This document shows positions 5,596 to 28,969 of a stretch of DNA of 64,000 bases, piece by piece. Every line of letters begins with the position of its first letter. Position 1 is the stretch's first letter. Source of the stretch: Sphingorhabdus sp. EL138. Its GTDB lineage: Bacteria > Pseudomonadota > Alphaproteobacteria > Sphingomonadales > Sphingomonadaceae. Position numbers and translations under genes: made by a program. The notes under the pieces are model-generated. The model saw only the letters and a program-made list of their open reading frames with translations. It did no database searches and was not told where the DNA came from. The DNA lies in contig NZ_OGVD01000004.1 of assembly GCF_900258045.1 (NCBI RefSeq), forward strand, positions 434,001 to 498,000, in the 5' to 3' direction.

Positions 5596-6690
5596 ATGAA
5601 ACATTCTCCCCCTCAGGCCACAGACGCCGCGAAAGCCCAGGCTTTTGATGATAATGAGCTGATCCGCACTGCCGCGAAAGTCACCCGTGACCTCAATGCG
5701 GTTCGCCCTGTAATCTATTGGTCGGATTTGCTGGTGTCCACTATTGTGGGCTACGGCGCCATGGTTGCTGCGATCATGTTGAACAATGTCGGTCTGGCGA
5801 TACTGGCAGGTATTGTCTCGGTTTTGGCGCTTTATCGGGCCGGCAGTTTCATTCACGAACTGACCCATATCCGCCGCGGGTCGTTGCCGGGCTTTCGCTT
5901 TACGTGGAATGCCCTGATCGGTGTGCCATTGTTGCTTCCGTCTTTCATGTACGAGGGTATTCACAGCCTCCATCATGCTCGCACGCGTTATGGCACCGTC
6001 GAAGATCCGGAATATTTGCCGCTGGCGCTTATGAAACCCTACACCGTGCCATTGTTTGTTCTGGTATCGGCATTGGCACCGATTGGTCTGTTCATCCGTT
6101 ATGCGCTGCTGGCGCCGCTTTCCGCCGTAATTCCGCCCCTGAGAAAGGTGGTAGTGGAACGTTATTCCGGTTTGATCATCAATCCGGAATTCCGTCGCCG
6201 TCCACCTGAGGGCGAGTTTAAAAAGCAGTGGTATGCGCAGGAAATTGCGGCAAGCATCTGGGCCATTGTTGTCTTGAGCGCCGTGGCTACTGGGTTTTTG
6301 CCATTAAGAGCATTTTTGATTGCTGTTGCGATTGCCGCGGGCTCGGTGGTGCTCAACCAGATTCGCACGCTGGTTGCTCATCTCTGGGAAAATGATGGCG
6401 AAGTCATGAGTGTGACCGAGCAATATCTCGACAGCGTCAATGTTCCACCTCCCGGACTTCTGCCAGCTTTGTGGGCGCCAGTTGGACTGCGCTATCATGC
6501 GTTACACCACTTGTTGCCGGGCGTTCCTTATCATGGGCTGGGTGAGGCACATCGGCGTATTGCCGAAGCGTTGCCGAAAGGATCGACTTACTATCGGGCC
6601 AATCATACCAGCCTATGGGGTCTGGTGATGGGATTGGTGCGGGGCAGTTCTGGTCACGCGGCGTCGAGCCAGTCAACCGCCGCCAACTAA
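5596..6690 (+). CDS. membrane fatty acid desaturase/hydroxylase
   Basis: A 364-residue integral-membrane di-iron enzyme. The three histidine boxes are HELTH at 87-91, HSLHH at 123-127 and HALHH at 301-305, spaced as in acyl desaturases. Hydrophobic segments lie at about 45-62, 66-82, 155-180 and 225-265. It would desaturate or hydroxylate an acyl chain at the inner membrane. A role on sphingolipid acyl chains is suggested only by its place beside the candidate ceramide synthase and LptG/LptF. The ATG at 5596 is preceded by an AGGA-type ribosome site. It converges with lptG, and the two stops are only a few nt apart. Confidence 0.85.
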   Translation: MKHSPPQATDAAKAQAFDDNELIRTAAKVTRDLNAVRPVIYWSDLLVSTIVGYGAMVAAIMLNNVGLAILAGIVSVLALYRAGSFIHELTHIRRGSLPGFRFTWNALIGVPLLLPSFMYEGIHSLHHARTRYGTVEDPEYLPLALMKPYTVPLFVLVSALAPIGLFIRYALLAPLSAVIPPLRKVVVERYSGLIINPEFRRRPPEGEFKKQWYAQEIAASIWAIVVLSAVATGFLPLRAFLIAVAIAAGSVVLNQIRTLVAHLWENDGEVMSVTEQYLDSVNVPPPGLLPALWAPVGLRYHALHHLLPGVPYHGLGEAHRRIAEALPKGSTYYRANHTSLWGLVMGLVRGSSGHAASSQSTAAN

Positions 6691-6692
6691 GC

Positions 6693-7781
6693 CTATTCTT
6701 CAGTTCTTATCAGTACTGTTTCGCCGATCAGGAAGAACAGAATGAACGGCGCCCAGGCCGCCAATATCGGCGGGTAGGCGCCAATTGTTCCCATGGCCAG
6801 CGAGAAGTTATCTGCGACAAAATAGGCAAAGCCAAGCGCCATCCCGAGTACCGCGCGGACGAATAACTGTCCTGATCGCGCCAGACCAAAAGCGGCCACT
6901 GCGCCAAGTAGCGGCATCAATACCGCAGACAAGGGCCCTGAAATCTTGTGCCATAGACTGGCCTCCAGCGCCATTGTTGGCCGCCCCGCCTCTTTCAATT
7001 CCGCAATGGCGGATCTCAACTGCGGGAAGGACAAGCCATCTGCTTTAACATCGGCAAGCGTGAACTGGTCAGGGCGCAAAGTATCGCCGACTGTGATGCT
7101 GTCCCTTTTTTCCTCCGTGCCGGTCAGCACGTTAAACTGTGTCACCCCCGTCACGGTCCAGGATGACCCAGTGAACCGTGCTTCGTCACCCTGCATCAGG
7201 TTGCGCAGGCCGCTGTTGGTCCGGTTATAGACAGTTATGTCTTCCAGAACCACATCCGTACCGCGGCCGGTTACGGTCTTTGCGTTGATCAGATTGTCTC
7301 CGTCTTTGACCCAAACGTTGGTCCGGACATTGCTCGCGGCCGGTACTGGTCCATAATCAACCTTCTCCCAGGCTGAGAGCTTGGCTGTAGCCGGTGCCAC
7401 GACAATTTCATTGAACAGAAAAGATATAATGGCGACGAACAGGCTCGTAATGATTAAAGGCGCCAGAATCTGATGCGCGGAGAGTCCGCCAGCCTTCATC
7501 GAAATAACTTCGCTATTCTGGTTTAGCGTCGCGGCAGTTATGATTGTACCCAACAGCACTGCAAAGGGTAAAAAACGTTGGATGAGCTGTGGTGCCCGCC
7601 AAGTGACGTAAGTCCACAGTTCACTCTGCCCATTTCCTTCCTGTGCGAGAATGCGCCCGCTTTCACCGAGTAGGTCCAGCGCCTGCAACACCAGCACCAA
7701 AAGCGCGAGCACGGCCAAGGTTCGTAACATCAGCATTTTTGCCATGTAAAGGGCGAGCGTTCGCGACGGGAAAAAATCCAT
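6693..7781 (-). CDS. lptG: LptG-type permease of the LPS/lipid export ABC system
   Basis: A 362-residue YjgP/YjgQ-family permease with the usual plan: two N-terminal membrane helices, a large periplasmic beta-jellyroll at about residues 110-250, and four C-terminal helices. LptG pairs with LptF and the LptB ATPase to extract lipid from the inner membrane. It lies 39 nt downstream of lptF, so the pair is one transcription unit. Sphingomonads classically carry glycosphingolipid in place of LPS, so the cargo here may be sphingolipid. The gene could serve either role. Confidence 0.85.
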   Translation of the reverse strand: MDFFPSRTLALYMAKMLMLRTLAVLALLVLVLQALDLLGESGRILAQEGNGQSELWTYVTWRAPQLIQRFLPFAVLLGTIITAATLNQNSEVISMKAGGLSAHQILAPLIITSLFVAIISFLFNEIVVAPATAKLSAWEKVDYGPVPAASNVRTNVWVKDGDNLINAKTVTGRGTDVVLEDITVYNRTNSGLRNLMQGDEARFTGSSWTVTGVTQFNVLTGTEEKRDSITVGDTLRPDQFTLADVKADGLSFPQLRSAIAELKEAGRPTMALEASLWHKISGPLSAVLMPLLGAVAAFGLARSGQLFVRAVLGMALGFAYFVADNFSLAMGTIGAYPPILAAWAPFILFFLIGETVLIRTEE

Positions 7782-19845: not shown

Positions 19846-21159
19846 TCACTCCGCCGCCTGCAATTGCTCCATTTGGGTTACGCGTGGATCATTGGGATGG
19901 ACCCATTCTTCACCGATCACCTGTTTCACTGCGAGCTCGTCCGGCACGTTATCGAGACCGATCATCTTGTCGCAGGTCTGATGAAAACTGTAGATACGCG
20001 CTTCCTGATAGCTCAAAGGCACACTCTTGAACCCGTCGCTTTCCATGGATTTCTGGATCATCTCGCCAAATTGCGTGTCTTCCAGGATGATCGGGCTCAT
20101 ATCCCTGCCATTCGGCTTGCTCTCATTCGGTACTGTCCACAGGTCTGGCGCTGGACCGTCCCCCCAGTCCAGCGCCATCGTGACGAGTTCCAACCGGGTT
20201 GTATTCAGCCCGGTCGGCCAGAAAACCAAAGGCGGTATAAAATAATTGGATAGTGGTGACACCCAGTTGGGGAACATGGTGTAGCTTTGCGTGCAGGTGC
20301 GGCCCAGTTCGCCGACCGTATCAATCTCTTGCCATTCCGGGGGAGAGTCAACGGCTCTGACATGCTCGCGGTCGGTTTCCTGCGGGGCAGGGGCCAGCAT
20401 CCGGGCATGGCCATTGGGGAAGATGGTGTTCACATTGCGCTTGCTATCGACCAGTGGTGCGACGGTTTCGGGATGGATGAAGGGGACGTGATAGACCTCC
20501 ATATTGGCTTCCATCGCCACCTTCCAGTTGCAGTTGAGGTCAAAGGAGTGGCGCGCGGCGAGTTTGATCTTGTCGAACTGAAATTCTTCCCAGTCATTCC
20601 AGACTGGGCCAAGCCATTCCCTTAGCGGCATTGCATCATCATCAAAGTTCACAAAGATTACATTGCCCAACATCTCGCATTTGACCGGGATCAGGCTGCG
20701 GCAACTAAAGTCGAAATCGGCAGGGAAATCCTGTTTTTCGGGTACACCGACCAGCGTGCCATCGGTCTTGTAGGTCCAGTTATGGTAACCGCACATCAAA
20801 CGCGGCGAGCGGCCTTTTTCTTCTGTAACAACCGGCGCTCCGCGATGTCGACATGTGTTGTAAAACGCCCGTACTTCACCGTCCATACCATGGACAATTA
20901 TAACCGGAGTCCCGGTATTTTCCCATTTCATGAAACATCCAGGTTCCGGGATTTCATCAATATGCGCCGCGAATAGCCAGCTTTTTTTCCAGATATGCCG
21001 TTGTTCCAGATCATAATATTCCTGGGAGGTATAGCGGCCCGCCGGAAGATCAGGCAGAGGCGGAAAACCGTCCGGCGGCGCAGAGCGCGATGCTTCCCAC
21101 TCCATCAGGCGCTTCATTTGCGCTACATAAGCTGGATCCATTGGCATCAGTCTATTCAT
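19846..21159 (-). CDS. Rieske-type aromatic ring-hydroxylating oxygenase, large subunit
   Basis: A 437-residue oxygenase alpha subunit. The Rieske [2Fe-2S] ligands are seen in CRHRG and CGYHNW (CxH...CxxH). The mononuclear iron site is carried by EANMEVYHVPFIHP, which supplies the two His ligands. The C-terminal catalytic domain is of normal size. No beta subunit, ferredoxin or reductase gene is adjacent, as in the three-component alpha-only group that borrows electron carriers. The ATG at 21159, just after a GGGAG site, was chosen; upstream in-frame starts add no recognisable sequence. The substrate is unknown. Confidence 0.82.
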   Translation of the reverse strand: MNRLMPMDPAYVAQMKRLMEWEASRSAPPDGFPPLPDLPAGRYTSQEYYDLEQRHIWKKSWLFAAHIDEIPEPGCFMKWENTGTPVIIVHGMDGEVRAFYNTCRHRGAPVVTEEKGRSPRLMCGYHNWTYKTDGTLVGVPEKQDFPADFDFSCRSLIPVKCEMLGNVIFVNFDDDAMPLREWLGPVWNDWEEFQFDKIKLAARHSFDLNCNWKVAMEANMEVYHVPFIHPETVAPLVDSKRNVNTIFPNGHARMLAPAPQETDREHVRAVDSPPEWQEIDTVGELGRTCTQSYTMFPNWVSPLSNYFIPPLVFWPTGLNTTRLELVTMALDWGDGPAPDLWTVPNESKPNGRDMSPIILEDTQFGEMIQKSMESDGFKSVPLSYQEARIYSFHQTCDKMIGLDNVPDELAVKQVIGEEWVHPNDPRVTQMEQLQAAE

Positions 21160-21379
21160 CTCTCCCGATATCGCCTCATGGCACGGCGATGACCACGTGG
21201 TCGATTGACAATAGTGATAGAGGAAAGACACCGGCGCTATGGTATCAAAATCGGCGGCGAAAACCATGAGACCTGTTCATTGGAAAGTCTTGTCACGTGG
21301 TCTCGGGGCGTGACTATCAGTGGTTCTTTACTTTAAGATTTCTGCGAATACCCGGGTCAATAGTTTGTGGGAGGACATA

Positions 21380-22917: not shown

Positions 22918-22947
22918 TTGACAGAAACGCCTTGCTCCAGCTATTAA
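22918..22947 (+). promoter_or_regulatory. sigma-70 type promoter of the Tat-protein/MddA-like operon
   Basis: A perfect -35 TTGACA (22918-22923) and -10 TATTAA (22942-22947) are separated by 18 nt. The -10 box abuts the inverted-repeat operator, so a bound repressor would block transcription start. Confidence 0.75.
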
Positions 22948-22962
22948 GTATCCACTGGATAC
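22948..22962. promoter_or_regulatory. operator GTATCCACTGGATAC, probable TetR site 1
   Basis: Perfect 6-bp arms GTATCC and GGATAC flank a 3-nt centre. The core TATCCACTGGATA recurs upstream of the thioesterase-TetR operon at 26727-26739 on the minus strand. The distance from the TTGACA box is the same at both sites. Confidence 0.75.
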
Positions 22963-22996
22963 ATAAAAAATAGACGAAAATTTAGAAGGAAAAATC

Positions 22997-24424
22997 ATGT
23001 CCCCTCATGAAGTAAAAACACGTTTCGGAACATCGCGGCGCAAGGTTCTTGGCGCTTCGATGCTGGGTGCTGGAACAATGCTTGCTGGCATTGGCGCCAG
23101 CGCCGCCGGTGCGACCCTGAAGTCAAAAGGCAATATCTTGTTGGATCGCGTTCCGGATATGCCCAAGGGGCTTTTCGATGCGGTCAACTTCCCGTTGATC
23201 GAAGCAATTCACGGTCGCCGGTCACGCCGATTTGCGCGCGGCGCATCCATCCCGGATGGTCCGCTGGCCTATACGTCCAAGCAAAAGCCGGAAGCTTTGT
23301 CTGAACTGGAGCAAATGTTGCTGCTCACAACGGTTGCAGGCAATACCGGCTGGTCCAACCTGATCCCCCATAATCCCAAATATCTGCCCCACATCCCCAA
23401 TTATGCCGGGGCCGCTGGCGGACGGACTTTTCCGTCCTGCGCGGGGTTCCAGATTACCGAGTTTTTCTACACTGACGACAAAGGCGTCTACTTCCTCCCC
23501 ACCCGTGACATGCCAGCGACGAGCGCGACCAAGCCCAATGGCGAGACGGATCTCAAAGCCTATCTTGACGCGCACAAATCGCGGATCGCGAAGATCGCCG
23601 ATGGCCGCCTGAACATACCGACAAAGGCTGAGCATATGGAAATGCACAATGAATGGTGCGCCAATGTTCCGGGCAGTACGATGATCTTTCCGGTCGCCGA
23701 TCTCGCGCAGCATATCATCATGGCTTTGTGCTATTTCGTTCAGGGCGGCGTGTGCATCTATGACGACGTGAATAATCGCCCGATCCCAGGTCTGGAGAAG
23801 TTCAAACATCTGGTTGATCTGGAGAACCCGTACCCAATGACTTATGTCGAGCAGGTCAGCGCGAATGAAGTGACGGTCGAATTGTCCTGTTCCTGTTATG
23901 CCGGTGCGCTAATGCTTCAGGCCATGGGGCTTGGCGGCTGGATGTATGACGGCCTCAATCCATTCAGCGTGTTGGGCGCAAGCGGTGATCCCGACGTTCC
24001 CGGCCTGGGCTTCCGTTTTGATATGTTGCCCAATGAACCTTTGCCACATGTCACCGGACTGGAAGGCATATTGGAAGGGCATTGTCAGCCCCATTTCAAG
24101 GATATGCGCGCCGCCGTTGTGTCTGTAGTTGAACGCAAATTTGGAAAAGGCGGACCATTTAACGCCAGCACGCCGGGTCACTATAAAGAAACCGACGCCG
24201 TGCGTCGAAGCGCGGCACCGATCGATGACGAATTCATTGATTGCGTGGCGACCATGGCGCAATATGTTCAGGACACATTTGGCCGGTTCCCTGCCAAAGT
24301 GCCGGCTATTCTGACGCTGATGTACCTTCAGGCGCACAAGCTCGATACCGGTTTCTATGACACCTATTTTGATCACGGCGCCTATCTGAAAACCCATGCG
24401 GATCACCAGAAAAACTGGGCATAG
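22997..24424 (+). CDS. Tat-exported nitroreductase-like protein, function unknown
   Basis: A 475-residue protein with a twin-arginine signal at about residues 13-38 (TSRRKVLGASMLGAG), so it is probably folded with a cofactor before export. After the signal, IEAIHGRRSRRFARGASIP resembles the flavin-binding RRS start of nitroreductases. The rest is long and rich in Cys, including FPSCAGF, NEWCAN, CYFVQGGVC and SCSCYAG. I do not know a characterised relative. AAGGA precedes the ATG. The MddA-like methyltransferase gene follows 28 nt later, and the operator lies 34 nt before the start codon. Confidence 0.65.
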   Translation: MSPHEVKTRFGTSRRKVLGASMLGAGTMLAGIGASAAGATLKSKGNILLDRVPDMPKGLFDAVNFPLIEAIHGRRSRRFARGASIPDGPLAYTSKQKPEALSELEQMLLLTTVAGNTGWSNLIPHNPKYLPHIPNYAGAAGGRTFPSCAGFQITEFFYTDDKGVYFLPTRDMPATSATKPNGETDLKAYLDAHKSRIAKIADGRLNIPTKAEHMEMHNEWCANVPGSTMIFPVADLAQHIIMALCYFVQGGVCIYDDVNNRPIPGLEKFKHLVDLENPYPMTYVEQVSANEVTVELSCSCYAGALMLQAMGLGGWMYDGLNPFSVLGASGDPDVPGLGFRFDMLPNEPLPHVTGLEGILEGHCQPHFKDMRAAVVSVVERKFGKGGPFNASTPGHYKETDAVRRSAAPIDDEFIDCVATMAQYVQDTFGRFPAKVPAILTLMYLQAHKLDTGFYDTYFDHGAYLKTHADHQKNWA

Positions 24425-24452
24425 GTCTGGCGCGACCCAAAGGAATACGGAT

Positions 24453-25247
24453 ATGATACGTAAAAGCCTGATGCTGATCTACGCTTTGGGTGCCTATGCC
24501 CTGAGCATGGCCGCGCTTGTCTACATTATGGGTTTTCTGATCGACTTTGGCGTGCCGAAGGGGATAAGCGGCCAAAGCGCAATGGATGACGAATCCCTTG
24601 CGCTTTGGCCCGCCATATTAGGCAATGCTGGCCTGATCGCGCTTTTCGGTTTGCACCATTCGATTACTGCGCGGACGTCATTCAAGCGCTGGTGGACCGG
24701 GATCATTCCGGCGCCGATTGAACGGGCAACCTATCTGTATATGACTGTGGCTATGACGGCATTGCTTGTCTTGTTCTGGCAGCCCATTCCGATTACGATA
24801 TGGCATGTGGAGCCCAGGCTGGCGGCCAGTTTCATCTATGCCGGATATGCCGGCATATGGACGATGATGGTCGCGGCGACGTTTCACTTTGGCCATTTCG
24901 GTTTTCTGGGGCTCGCGCAAGCCTGGCAGAATTTTCGAAATACCAAACCCGCGCCATCCAACATGACCGCGCGTTATCTCTATGCGCTGGTCCGTCATCC
25001 GATCAGTCTCGGCTGGATGCTTGCGCCTTTCATGACGCCACATTTCACGGTCGGTCATCTGGTTTTTGCAGGGGCTACCTTTGCTTACATCCTGTTGGCG
25101 ACACCGTTTGAGGAAGCGGACCTGATTGAGGAGATAGGAGAACCCTATCGCGATTATCGTGATCGTGTCCCGACTTTTGTCCCGTTTGCCAAGCGCAGAT
25201 TGTTCAAAGCAGTTCCGGAGCATAGATCCCGACCGCCTGGCCGGTAA
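24453..25247 (+). CDS. MddA/NnrU-like integral-membrane methyltransferase
   Basis: A 264-residue membrane protein with about five helices, related to methanethiol S-methyltransferase MddA and to isoprenylcysteine methyltransferases. Key features are FGLHHSITAR near the N-terminus, HFGHFGFLGLAQAW, and the C-terminal SAM-binding part LVRHPISLGWM...TPHFTVGHLVFA...PFEEADL, ending in YRDRVPTFVP. MddA makes dimethyl sulfide from methanethiol. Whether this protein methylates a thiol or another group is open. The ATG at 24453 has AAGGA upstream. It is the second gene of the operator-controlled operon. Confidence 0.75.
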   Translation: MIRKSLMLIYALGAYALSMAALVYIMGFLIDFGVPKGISGQSAMDDESLALWPAILGNAGLIALFGLHHSITARTSFKRWWTGIIPAPIERATYLYMTVAMTALLVLFWQPIPITIWHVEPRLAASFIYAGYAGIWTMMVAATFHFGHFGFLGLAQAWQNFRNTKPAPSNMTARYLYALVRHPISLGWMLAPFMTPHFTVGHLVFAGATFAYILLATPFEEADLIEEIGEPYRDYRDRVPTFVPFAKRRLFKAVPEHRSRPPGR

Positions 25248-25251
25248 ACAA

Positions 25252-25656
25252 TTATTGGTCGGTGGAATCTGAAGTATAATAACCCATGACCGGCTCAACC
25301 TTCAAAAGACTTTTGATATGGCCCCAATCCCCCGATGCAACAATCCGATCATAATGTTCACCATGAAGTTCTTTTGATGCCCACACTTCCTGAAGCACGA
25401 AGACATTGGGTGTTTCAACATTCCGATAAACGATTGCGGAGACAAATCCCGGCTCCGAAGCCATGGCCTCGGACACACCGGCCATTATTTCTGAAAATTC
25501 CTTTAACCCCTCATTGCTCGCCTCGAAGTTAATGATGAGTGTTACGGGCGCTTCAGTATCAGAGGTTGCCGGTGCGTTTGCACAAGCTGGGAGTGTGGCG
25601 ATGGAAAAGATTATCAAGAGGTATTTCAATAAGTTGAATGCTTGATTCTGAATCAT
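25252..25656 (-). CDS. ABM-domain (quinol monooxygenase-like) lipoprotein
   Basis: A 134-residue protein with a lipoprotein signal (lipobox TLPAC near residue 25). An antibiotic-biosynthesis-monooxygenase fold follows, visible as TLIINFEASNEGLKEF, FVLQEVWASKELHGEHY and a final short strand. ABM proteins act on quinols or polyketides or are simple dimeric binders. Membrane anchoring of one is unusual. It overlaps the TetR stop by ATGA and is the last gene of the thioesterase-TetR-ABM operon. It converges on the MddA-like gene. Confidence 0.75.
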   Translation of the reverse strand: MIQNQAFNLLKYLLIIFSIATLPACANAPATSDTEAPVTLIINFEASNEGLKEFSEIMAGVSEAMASEPGFVSAIVYRNVETPNVFVLQEVWASKELHGEHYDRIVASGDWGHIKSLLKVEPVMGYYTSDSTDQ

Positions 25657-26264
25657 TGGGGAGACTCCTTTTCTGTGGACCAGAGCGCCTGCGAAGCTTC
25701 GTCGGGTGCGGGACCTAAGCCAGCTACCGCAAGCAGCTCCTTGATAAAGTCTTCGTCCGGGCGGGCCTTGAGCGTGCCCGAGCTATGCAGCCCAACCCCG
25801 CCATGAACGAGCATCCAGTAACGCATCACAGCCCTGCGTTTGTCATCGTCGCTGCCTTGGTCGGGCGCAAGCACGGCTATCGACGTAGCGATCATTGCAT
25901 CAGCACCGGTGCGTAACTCGGGCACATTTTCAAACTGTGCGTAGCTGCGGTTCATCATGATGGTGTAAAGGTGACCGTGGTTTAGTGCGAATGTCGCATA
26001 GGTACGGACAAATTCCGCCGCATTCCTGGTCTTTGCGAGAAGACCGGAAAGCTCATGATAACCACCAGCAGCTACTGCTGACAGCAATGCGTCCTTGTCG
26101 GCAAAGTGATTGTAAATCGCGCGGTGCGCCACGCCGATCTTGGTCGCCAGAGATCGCATACTAAGCTTCTCTGCGTCGCCTTTGTCAATGCGCCTGCGTG
26201 CAAGGTCCAGCACCGCCTGGCGCAAGTCCCCATGATGATAGTTATCGCGGGTTTTTTTGGTCAA
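25653..26264 (-). CDS. TetR-family repressor
   Basis: A 203-residue TetR regulator. The helix-turn-helix lies in LSMRSLATKIGVAHRAIYNHFADKDALLSAV at about residues 40-70, and the ligand domain ends in a WHG-type motif (YWMLVHGGVGL). The start appears to be TTG, overlapping the thioesterase stop (TTGA). As the only local repressor in its operon it is the best candidate for binding the two TATCCACTGGATA operators, so it would control itself and the facing Tat-protein operon. Confidence 0.85.
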   Translation of the reverse strand: MTKKTRDNYHHGDLRQAVLDLARRRIDKGDAEKLSMRSLATKIGVAHRAIYNHFADKDALLSAVAAGGYHELSGLLAKTRNAAEFVRTYATFALNHGHLYTIMMNRSYAQFENVPELRTGADAMIATSIAVLAPDQGSDDDKRRAVMRYWMLVHGGVGLHSSGTLKARPDEDFIKELLAVAGLGPAPDEASQALWSTEKESPQ

Positions 26265-26713
26265 GCTGCCGCCTTCGAGACATGCCAGTCGACTTGCATG
26301 GCGGTAACTTCTTCTTCTGCCTCATCACGCATGGAGACTTCCACTGCAAACTGGACCTTGCCAGCTTCATCCAGCACGCTCAGCAAATCTCCAGCGGGTT
26401 GAGACAGTTTTGCGAACGCGCGGATCGGACCCTTGGCCACTTTTACATATCGGATGGAGGCATTGGCAGCCACTGGTCTGACCGTCATCAGCACCGATAC
26501 AAAACCCCCTGCCATCGCGGCACCAGATGCCGCTTCGCCGAGCGTGAACAACGCACCGGCATGTTGACTGCCAATATGGTTGAGCGTCACGTCCTGCGCA
26601 GGCAGCAATGCTTCGCCCACGCCGTCTTCTATTGAAATCAGCTCAACCCCGGTATGGTTGGCAAATGGAACGGTTTGGGAAATGCTTTCCCGGATCATGT
26701 CATATGGTGTCAT
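26261..26713 (-). CDS. PaaI/YiiD-like hotdog-fold thioesterase (DUF4442-like)
   Basis: A 150-residue hotdog-fold protein. The pattern FANHTGVELISIEDGVGEALLPAQDVTLNHIGSQHAGALFTLGEAASG is that of acyl-CoA thioesterases of the PaaI/DUF4442 group, with the HAGALFTLGE helix carrying the catalytic acidic residue. It should hydrolyse an acyl- or aryl-CoA. I chose the ATG at 26713 over an upstream TTG because the palindromic operator and promoter lie just before it. First gene of the thioesterase-TetR-ABM operon. Confidence 0.8.
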   Translation of the reverse strand: MTPYDMIRESISQTVPFANHTGVELISIEDGVGEALLPAQDVTLNHIGSQHAGALFTLGEAASGAAMAGGFVSVLMTVRPVAANASIRYVKVAKGPIRAFAKLSQPAGDLLSVLDEAGKVQFAVEVSMRDEAEEEVTAMQVDWHVSKAAA

Positions 26714-26723
26714 AGCGGCCCTT

Positions 26724-26742
26724 ATATATCCAGTGGATATAT
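26724..26742. promoter_or_regulatory. operator, probable TetR site 2
   Basis: ATATATCC and GGATATAT form perfect 8-bp arms around a 3-nt centre. Read on the minus strand, the inner 15-mer is ATATCCACTGGATAT, which differs from site 1 only at its two end bases. It sits 10 nt before the thioesterase start codon. Confidence 0.75.
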
Positions 26743-26770
26743 TTATTGCAAGCAGATGTTCGCTTGTCAA
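26741..26770 (-). promoter_or_regulatory. sigma-70 type promoter of the thioesterase-TetR-ABM operon
   Basis: On the minus strand, TTGACA (26770-26765) and ATAAAT (26746-26741) are 18 nt apart, with the operator right after the -10 box. The layout equals that of the facing Tat-protein promoter. Confidence 0.7.
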
Positions 26771-26830: not shown

Positions 26831-28969
26831 TCAAGCCGCACTTACCCGCACTGGAATCGCGCTTTGCACCGCCTGACCGGTAATCGGATCGAGATGATCA
26901 TTGTCGACAATCAACCGGTTGGTCGATCCGCCCTTGGTCATCACATCATCCTTGCCTGCCTCACTGTCGCCAAAGGCATGACTCATAGAGATGACGCCGG
27001 GGCGGACTTTTTCGTCTGCTTTGGCCATGCCGAAGATGGATGCAGTGGGGGAGGTGATTTCGATGATCGCGCCGTCGCTGATCCCCGCCTTCGCCATGTC
27101 GTCGGGATTGATAAAGGCCGGATTAGTCGGCATTTTTTCAACCAGTTTCGGGAAGGGGTGTCCGTTGCTGTTATAGCGATGTTTCGACCGGCGGGAAATC
27201 AGGCGGAAGTCGAAGCCGTCTTTTGCGGGGTCATTGGCGGCATAGTCGATCAGCTCACTTGGCATGGCTCCGGCATTGAGATCAAAACGGTTTTCGCTGT
27301 CCGGGTCAGCGGGACCAACGACCGGGTGCAGCTCGTCATATGTGATCGCCGCGCCCTTGCGCTCCAGCGCCGCTGCATCCGCTTTCGCCTTGCTGGGTTT
27401 CAGGAGCGAGCCTTCTGTTATCAGGTCAAGAACGGTCGCCTTGTCGGGGCATTCGTCCATCGATACCGCGCCGCCGGGATAGTTCATTTCTATGCCCATG
27501 TGCTTGGCGAGCCACCAGAGCATTTCATACTCATCCATCGTGTCGCCGGGCGCCGGAACCATCGCTTCGGTATAGTGGGCATAGGCTTCCTCCGTGAATG
27601 CATCGGAGACATTGTTGATGTCCTCGCGCTCCAGGCACATACTGGGTGCCAGGATGATATCAGAGCGCTTGGCGCTGGCGGACATCCACGGGTCAATCTG
27701 GATGAACAGCTCAACTTCATCGAGCGCGCGGCGGACCTTTTGCTGATCGGGGAAGGCGATCTCGGGATTGCCGCCGATGGAGATTAGCGCCTTGATCTGG
27801 CCTTCACCGGGGGTGAGGATTTCATCGGCCAGCACGTTACAAGGCATTTCCTTGCCCAACATGCCCAAGCCACGAATACGGGATTTGGCAAAGCCTTCGC
27901 CGAACATAGGGGTGGGGGGCGCGACTTGCGCTTTTTTGGGCATGCCGCTGAGCGGATTGAAAACCATCGGGGCGGAAACACGATCGCCTTCCTGATTGAA
28001 ACGCGCGCACAGGATATTGAGTGAGGCTACGAGATATTCGGTCAATGTGCCATTGCCCGCCATTTCCGGGCCTGTCCCTGTGACAACGCGGCCTTTATTG
28101 GCACCGGCAAACATGCGGGCGGCCTTGACCAGCTCTTCCTTGTCCACACCGGCACGCTGTGCCGCGACATCAGGCGTCATCGGTTTGACGGCGGCTTCCA
28201 GTTCCTCGACGCCATCAACATGGGCGGCGACGAAATTCCGGTCATAGAGTTTTTCGGCAAAGATGACATTGAGCATGCCAGCGAGCAGGGCAGGGTCTTC
28301 GCCCGGTTTCACGGGCAGGTAAACGTCTGCCAGCCGCCCCATGTCGCTGACCCGCGGATCGGCAACGATCACCTTCAGACCACGTTCCTTGGCATCGCGC
28401 AGGCCGCGAGACGGCGAGGATGTCGGCATGCCCCCGGAATAGTGGGAGACGATCGGATTGTTACCAACAAACATCGCAACATCTGATTCCGTAAAGGCAT
28501 TACCGCCACCCATCCACATGCCATAGCGGGCCGTGGTGAACACTTTGGCGGGTTGGTCAACCGTAACACTGGTATACCAGTTGCGAGAGCCAATGCCCTG
28601 CGCAAAGGCGTAAGATGTACCAAGCACAGCGCTATTCTGAAACGCATTGGTGCCGCAATAGACCGCTATGCTGTGGGGGCCGTGTTCCTCGACCATCTTT
28701 TTCATCTGCGCGCCGGCCAGTGCCAAGGCGTCTGCCGTTGCAATGTCCTTGAAAGTACCGTCTTCCTGACGAATTTTGCTGGTGATCATCCGGTCTGGCA
28801 GGTTGTGCATGTCGGTAAGCTGGCGGCCCTTGATGCAGGTATAGCCGTTGAATAGATGATCGTCCTTGTCACCGCGCACGGCAACGACCTTTTCATCCTC
28901 AACATCCACCAGCATTGCGCAGCTGGCATGACAAAAACGGCAAAAACTTCTCTTGGTCTCGACGGCCAT
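26831..28969 (-). CDS. molybdopterin-dependent oxidoreductase (DMSO-reductase family)
   Basis: A 712-residue cytoplasmic Mo/W-bis-MGD enzyme. The N-terminal [4Fe-4S] site is C10-x2-C13-x3-C17-x27-C45. Central and C-terminal molybdopterin-binding domains follow (VGNNPIVSHYSGG, SIGGNPEIAFPD, SRRSKHRYNSNGH). There is no Tat signal. Where many relatives carry the Cys, SeCys or Ser metal ligand, I read SVTVDQPAK, so the ligand may be Asp or absent. No electron-transfer subunit or chaperone gene is adjacent. The substrate is unknown. AGGAG precedes the ATG. Confidence 0.8.
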   Translation of the reverse strand: MAVETKRSFCRFCHASCAMLVDVEDEKVVAVRGDKDDHLFNGYTCIKGRQLTDMHNLPDRMITSKIRQEDGTFKDIATADALALAGAQMKKMVEEHGPHSIAVYCGTNAFQNSAVLGTSYAFAQGIGSRNWYTSVTVDQPAKVFTTARYGMWMGGGNAFTESDVAMFVGNNPIVSHYSGGMPTSSPSRGLRDAKERGLKVIVADPRVSDMGRLADVYLPVKPGEDPALLAGMLNVIFAEKLYDRNFVAAHVDGVEELEAAVKPMTPDVAAQRAGVDKEELVKAARMFAGANKGRVVTGTGPEMAGNGTLTEYLVASLNILCARFNQEGDRVSAPMVFNPLSGMPKKAQVAPPTPMFGEGFAKSRIRGLGMLGKEMPCNVLADEILTPGEGQIKALISIGGNPEIAFPDQQKVRRALDEVELFIQIDPWMSASAKRSDIILAPSMCLEREDINNVSDAFTEEAYAHYTEAMVPAPGDTMDEYEMLWWLAKHMGIEMNYPGGAVSMDECPDKATVLDLITEGSLLKPSKAKADAAALERKGAAITYDELHPVVGPADPDSENRFDLNAGAMPSELIDYAANDPAKDGFDFRLISRRSKHRYNSNGHPFPKLVEKMPTNPAFINPDDMAKAGISDGAIIEITSPTASIFGMAKADEKVRPGVISMSHAFGDSEAGKDDVMTKGGSTNRLIVDNDHLDPITGQAVQSAIPVRVSAA

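Follow-up and report, generated by a model that had tools for sequence, protein, structure and literature searches.

Organization of the locus

The locus considered here lies within a stretch of 64,000 nucleotides from Sphingorhabdus sp. EL138 (contig NZ_OGVD01000004.1, positions 434,001 to 498,000); the whole stretch is called the window in what follows, and positions without a prefix are its own. It contains two convergent operons (see Table 1): rightward from a first palindrome, operator 1, are encoded a protein with a twin-arginine (Tat) signal and then an MddA-like protein, and leftward from a second, operator 2, a DUF4442 thioesterase (predicted activity), a TetR-family regulator and an ABM-domain lipoprotein. 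As the operons are convergent, the two operators form the outer ends of the locus. The relation between the TetR regulator and these operators is the focus of the present analysis.

The core TATCCACTGGATA is present at 22949–22961 on the plus strand and at 26739–26727 on the minus strand; the corresponding 15-mers, GTATCCACTGGATAC (operator 1) and ATATCCACTGGATAT (operator 2), have 13 bp in common, and their end pairs are unlike, yet each is self-complementary. From the first base of TTGACA to the first base of the 15-mer the distance is 30 nt at both promoters (22918 to 22948 and 26770 to 26740), and the coordinates and spacing reported in an earlier note on this DNA, which had placed both 15-mers 30 nt after a perfect TTGACA, are borne out. 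The same note had the −10 box abutting the operator in both cases; the candidate TATTAA touches operator 1, and the candidate AATAAA is 1 nt away from its operator. Each candidate matches TATAAT at 4/6 positions. The regulator itself scores above the cut-off with both PF00440 (37.8 bits) and PF13305 (43.9 bits), and its TTG start overlaps the stop of the thioesterase gene.

Table 1. Genes and promoter elements of the locus, in window coordinates.
Feature	Position	Strand	Basis
−35 box TTGACA, Tat/MddA-like promoter	22918–22923	+	invariant in 7/7 clade genomes
−10 candidate TATTAA, 18-nt spacer, touching operator 1	22942–22947	+	by eye; putative
Operator 1, GTATCCACTGGATAC	22948–22962	+	sequence, clade alignment
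Protein with twin-arginine signal SRRKVLG, 475 aa, rare family, possibly nitroreductase-like	22997–24424	+	signal by eye
MddA-like membrane S-methyltransferase, 264 aa	24453–25247	+	NF045656, 230.2 bits, cut-off 270
ABM-domain protein with lipobox LPAC, 134 aa	25252–25656	−	PF03992, 41.4 bits, cut-off 23.1; lipobox by eye
TetR-family regulator, TetR_N + TetR_C_33, TTG start, 203 aa	25653–26264	−	Pfam, structure model
DUF4442 hotdog thioesterase, 150 aa, first gene of TetR operon	26261–26713	−	PF14539, 68.5 bits, cut-off 25
Operator 2, ATATCCACTGGATAT, upstream of thioesterase-TetR-ABM operon	26726–26740	−	sequence, clade alignment
−10 candidate AATAAA, 17-nt spacer, 1 nt from operator 2	26742–26747	−	by eye; putative
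−35 box TTGACA, TetR operon promoter	26765–26770	−	invariant in 7/7 clade genomes

Association of the operator with the regulator

Comparison among genomes assigns the palindrome TATCCANTGGATA to this TetR regulator as its predicted operator. A first set of 17 TetR orthologs, from different genomes, was gathered by protein similarity alone (L007–L009, L039–L041, L043–L047 and L106–L111), and five more were fetched by profile search once the motif was fixed; L042 and G153/L008 are one genome and are counted once. The palindrome lies upstream of the TetR gene or operon in 22/22 orthologs (about 31–100% identity), the site being perfect in 16, carrying one mismatch in two and taking the form of a symmetric two-mismatch variant, CATCCANTGGATG, in four; the first 17 contribute 12 perfect sites, the one-mismatch site of the TetR operon in L043 and all four variants (G318, G421, G340 and G207), the five later ones four perfect sites and one with a single mismatch. 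For the L109 ortholog the site was seen only in its longer stretch, L114. The consensus over the 22 loci is AT[A/G]TATCCANTGGATA[C/T]AT, with the centre base free, and a putative palindromic operator at the regulator's own promoter, the mark of autoregulated TetR repressors, is found in every one of them.

Seventy-six other TetR loci served as controls, 28 of the family (27 plus L146) and 48 weaker ones (57 similarity-search loci minus nine orthologs). Any site within two mismatches is present in 1/28 of the former and 1/48 of the latter, and neither is this palindrome upstream of TetR: in the weaker control (L092) the sequence GATCCAATGGATA lies 987 nt beyond the point where the TetR match starts, and in the family control (L034) the sequence TATGCATTGCATA is a different palindrome. 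The latter, at L034 1453, is perfect and stands directly before the control TetR gene, of whose product it is probably the own operator. The site was not found beside two weaker profile matches, L145 (a gene also listed as L011) and L146. In an even sample of 199 genomes of the family, all three with a TetR of at least 46% identity have perfect sites beside it, compared with 7/196 of the other genomes, where a site anywhere was counted (Fisher p 9e-5).

The recognition helix reads AHRxxYNHF in 18/22 orthologs and in 0/37 control rows (35 plus L145 and L146, or 36 distinct genes); the four remaining helices are GHRALYNHF, THRALYNHF or THRSLYNHF in three orthologs and THRALYRHY in one. In the tree, the 22 operator-carrying TetRs fall on one side of a branch and 33 others on the opposite side, with support 100/97. 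The CATCCANTGGATG variants (L114 2949, L115 6503, L118 5628 and L119 4171) all occur with the helix AHRSLYNHF, and these loci, sharing the same helix pattern, offer a natural pair for studies of TetR specificity. In L045 (Hyphomonadaceae) two tandem operators at 7507–7538, with starts 19 nt apart and the first carrying two mismatches, precede the thioesterase-TetR operon.

Perfect TATCCANTGGATA sites are rare: the 3.66-Mb window genome (four contigs) has two, both in promoters, against about 0.17 expected by chance, given this genome size and the base composition of the window. The shorter core ATCCANTGGAT occurs at eight places in the same genome, and the six besides the operators are all inside open reading frames. 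With two or three mismatches the motif is near background; up to three mismatches give 22 hits in the window where 9.8 would be expected (palindromes tallied on both strands), and 1/100 shuffles reached 22. The genome search with two mismatches, which the earlier note had proposed, was run and yielded 74 matches, little above background; it is therefore too loose when used alone. Of the inexact sites, those within reading frames are TATCCTCTGGATA (window 40513, judged by eye) and the one-mismatch sites of the window genome at L003, L005, L006 and C3:345499; a further one-mismatch site, at C2:465107, falls between two convergent frames, beyond the 3′ end of each. The additional perfect sites in G207 and G460 are inside reading frames.

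A different regulator, encoded elsewhere, might bind both sites, TetR being merely a neighbour, and the site before the Tat gene does have no adjoining regulator gene of its own; this explanation is considered highly improbable, given that the site accompanies the TetR branch in 22/22 genomes and is not beside control TetRs, and that the perfect sites in ortholog-free family genomes, one in each of seven, are inside reading frames in five cases (L096, L097, L100, L103 and L104) and overlap a frame start in two (L101 and L102).

Conservation of both promoters

The window genome and L039–L044 make up a clade of seven genomes, and both operators are present in 7/7, with a variable centre base and constant arms. 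In the clade alignment of the Tat promoters the conserved columns amount to 11/12 in the operator arms, 6/6 in the −35 box, 6/24 in the spacer between −35 box and operator, 31/100 upstream and 21/30 in the first codons; for the TetR-operon promoters the corresponding figures are 11/12, 6/6, 9/24, 25/100 and 18/30. The distance of 30 nt between TTGACA and operator, measured at loci other than L106–L111, is kept at both window promoters, at 6/6 other Tat promoters and at 6/10 other TetR-operon promoters (L039–L041, L043, L044 and G162).

These figures bear on the possibility that TetR governs its own operon through operator 2, operator 1 being a relic or too weak to affect the Tat/MddA-like genes. 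Operator 1 is seen in a single clade, and a single perfect site, beside TetR, is all that is present in 6/11 of the other ortholog genomes scanned whole (G949, G1009, G1034, G162, G912 and G290; G153 and the clade aside); set against this, 11/12 arm columns of operator 1 are kept across a spacer conserved at 6/24, 30 nt after TTGACA in 7/7 genomes, and such a relic appears very unlikely. Both promoters share the palindrome and the relatives of the repressor carry it too, which argues for one local repressor for both operons: with high probability, TetR represses its own operon and the Tat/MddA-like operon through TATCCANTGGATA at the two promoters. The central proposal of the earlier note, one TetR-type regulator with two operators and two operons, thus withstands comparison, in view of the sites of all 22 orthologs, the second operator kept throughout the clade and the divergence of the promoter surroundings.

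Partner genes and evolution of the locus

The DUF4442 gene accompanies TetR in 17/22 loci and an enoyl-CoA hydratase in 3/22 (G207, G340 and G460), with an alpha/beta hydrolase-like frame, recognized by sequence only, between the two in G207 and G340 and none in G460; in L144 the operator stands before TetR alone, with neither thioesterase nor hydratase. A 4HBT thioesterase gene follows TetR in L045, L046 and L141–L143, and in G162 the DUF4442 gene, itself followed by a 4HBT thioesterase gene, faces away from TetR across a shared operator. At C1:389799 the window genome encodes a 4HBT thioesterase resembling that found after TetR elsewhere, and no site within three mismatches was found in that 3.4-kb locus.

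Within the clade, G153/L042 has lost the DUF4442 thioesterase gene, of which a short remnant (L042 7925–8001) lies between operator and TetR, and retains the operator and the genes for TetR, the ABM-domain protein, the MddA-like protein and the Tat-signal protein; in 2/6 clade relatives (L043 and L044) no ABM gene was found. Because ABM and thioesterase genes are missing from some clade relatives, the suggestion of the earlier note that the genes belong to one pathway could not be upheld as established. By tblastn, the MddA-like gene was found in none of the TetR loci outside the clade, many of which span only about 3.5 kb, and the Tat gene in none of those non-clade loci queried for it; in G089, from the same genus, TetR matches do not exceed 41% identity and the Tat gene is absent. 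Only in the clade of the window was the second operator seen upstream of the Tat-signal/MddA-like genes, in scans that covered, for L039–L041 and L043–L047, the loci and not the whole genomes.

Since the partner genes vary among loci and among clade members, the stable unit is, judging from these comparisons, the operator and TetR, accompanied in most loci by an acyl-CoA-type enzyme, whereas the Tat/MddA-like operon was apparently added later, in one clade; the second operator would likewise have been added later in the window's clade, where alone it has been seen so far. The locus would stand as a clean example of the growth of a regulon via the gain of a second operator.

Proposed mechanism and inducer

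A TetR dimer would bind the palindrome, in its shorter or longer form, just downstream of the −10 box at its own promoter and at the convergent Tat-signal/MddA-like promoter; as established TetR biology suggests, the bound protein would block RNA polymerase at initiation, and a small ligand may release it, in which case both operons would be switched on together. For the inducer, an acyl-CoA or the corresponding acid is the likeliest candidate, ahead of a sulphur compound, because the recurring partners (DUF4442 and 4HBT thioesterases, enoyl-CoA hydratase) act on acyl-CoA thioesters. The earlier note expected the pathway substrate to act as inducer, a view with weak support at best, and its wording implies a sulphur compound. 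Methanethiol or a similar compound, as the substrate of the MddA-like enzyme, is suggested by the position of that gene in the second operon; it is an improbable inducer, considering the acyl-CoA-type enzymes that recur beside TetR, the failure to find the MddA-like gene in loci outside the clade and an MddA assignment below cut-off. FasR with C20-CoA and FadR with stearoyl-CoA come lower among many similar structural matches of the TetR model, and these do not decide the ligand. Keeping to an acyl-CoA-type inducer, a wider scenario may be sketched, to be regarded as speculative and rather doubtful, in which an acyl-CoA-sensing repressor, in charge of thioesterases elsewhere, captured in one sphingomonad clade both a dimethylsulfide-type methyltransferase and an exported enzyme from a family not yet described; acyl-thioester stress would then elicit thiol methylation together with a periplasmic redox step.

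Several points weigh against the regulatory reading as a whole. The link to an acyl-CoA ligand is one of association. Four orthologs carry CATCC...GGATG instead of the main palindrome; the 30-nt spacing is confined to most of the clade and G162, being 28 in L042, 27 in L140 and 24 to the first tandem site in L045, and in the examined range no TTGACA was found in L046, L047 and L141–L144. As L101 and L102, two of the seven ortholog-free perfect sites, overlap frame starts, perfect sites outside the group are not all plainly non-promoter. Long branches meet in the TetR tree, and the placing is therefore to be taken with care.

The Tat-signal and MddA-like proteins

The MddA-like protein matches the NCBI model for MddA, the methanethiol S-methyltransferase (PMC5607357), over its whole length and under the curated equivalog cut-off (see Table 1); the description 'MddA-like' in the earlier note is apt as a statement of likeness, and membership of MddA proper does not follow from this score.

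The Tat-signal protein has no Pfam match, and its structure model reaches a pLDDT of 29.6, from an alignment of seven rows all at least 90% identical. The profile of its family gave no signal with 7/8 nitroreductase matches of the same genome. The family is present in 2/199 family genomes (the window genome and G153) and, beyond the window genome, in one among 385 genomes of the class (G313) and none among 309 of the phylum, the three samples overlapping. The lone distant relative found (L121, from G313, 5788–7215; about 29% identity) matches Nitroreductase PF00881 weakly (18.1 bits, cut-off 23.5) and adjoins a 922-aa molybdopterin oxidoreductase, with a glycyl-radical enzyme nearby. A molybdopterin oxidoreductase adjoins the window locus too (26831–28969).

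Relation to known regulators

The kind of system is well known, namely a locally acting, autoregulated TetR repressor, and this one is very probably undescribed, because it reaches no NCBI equivalog (the window TetR falls below every TetR equivalog cut-off), the 13-mer was not found in the papers searched and the palindromes of EdcR and PsrA differ. Within the collection of papers searched, none contained the 13-mer in any of six spellings, and a search for DUF4442 together with TetR gave a single match, concerning BLUF photoreceptors.

EdcR of Caenibius tardaugens (PMC8700777) is a TetR repressor of estrogen degradation with the palindrome TnnCnnTACnAnTnGTAnnGnnA; it resembles the window regulator as a sphingomonad TetR-type repressor whose palindrome overlaps the −10 box of several promoters, with autoregulation proposed, and it differs in a palindrome unlike TATCCANTGGATA and in being estrogen-dependent. 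PsrA/Smlt2053 (PMC10304680) is likewise an autoregulated TetR that shares its operon with genes for metabolic enzymes and is concerned with fatty-acid metabolism, but its operator is G/CAAAC(N2-4)GTTTG/C and not the window palindrome; a PsrA-type regulator was considered and rejected, the conserved promoter palindrome being TATCCANTGGATA and no PsrA-type box being visible by eye in the window promoter. FadP and LiuQ, which PMC5343134 describes as unique to betaproteobacteria and as serving fatty-acid and branched-chain amino-acid use, share the TetR type and the connection with acyl-CoA metabolism; they are set apart by an average of 17.9 and 5.2 genes per genome, as against two operons here. 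The window regulator is predicted to adopt an unremarkable TetR fold (mean pLDDT 85), with PDB 3on2, a Rhodococcus TetR titled as of unknown function, as the best structural match, the likeness being one of predicted fold.

An uncharacterized TetR group spread over several alphaproteobacterial families is thereby given a specific and directly testable operator, and is tied to acyl-CoA thioesterases and enoyl-CoA hydratase.

Flanking genes

No PLSDB plasmid gave a match to the TetR at E 1e-20. Just to the left of the locus lies a gene for a LuxR-type regulator with an autoinducer-binding domain (22554 being its right end and 21832 its left; PF03472 and PF00196 above cut-off), and further away, on the minus strand, one for the alpha subunit of a Rieske ring-hydroxylating oxygenase (19846–21267; PF00848 and PF00355).

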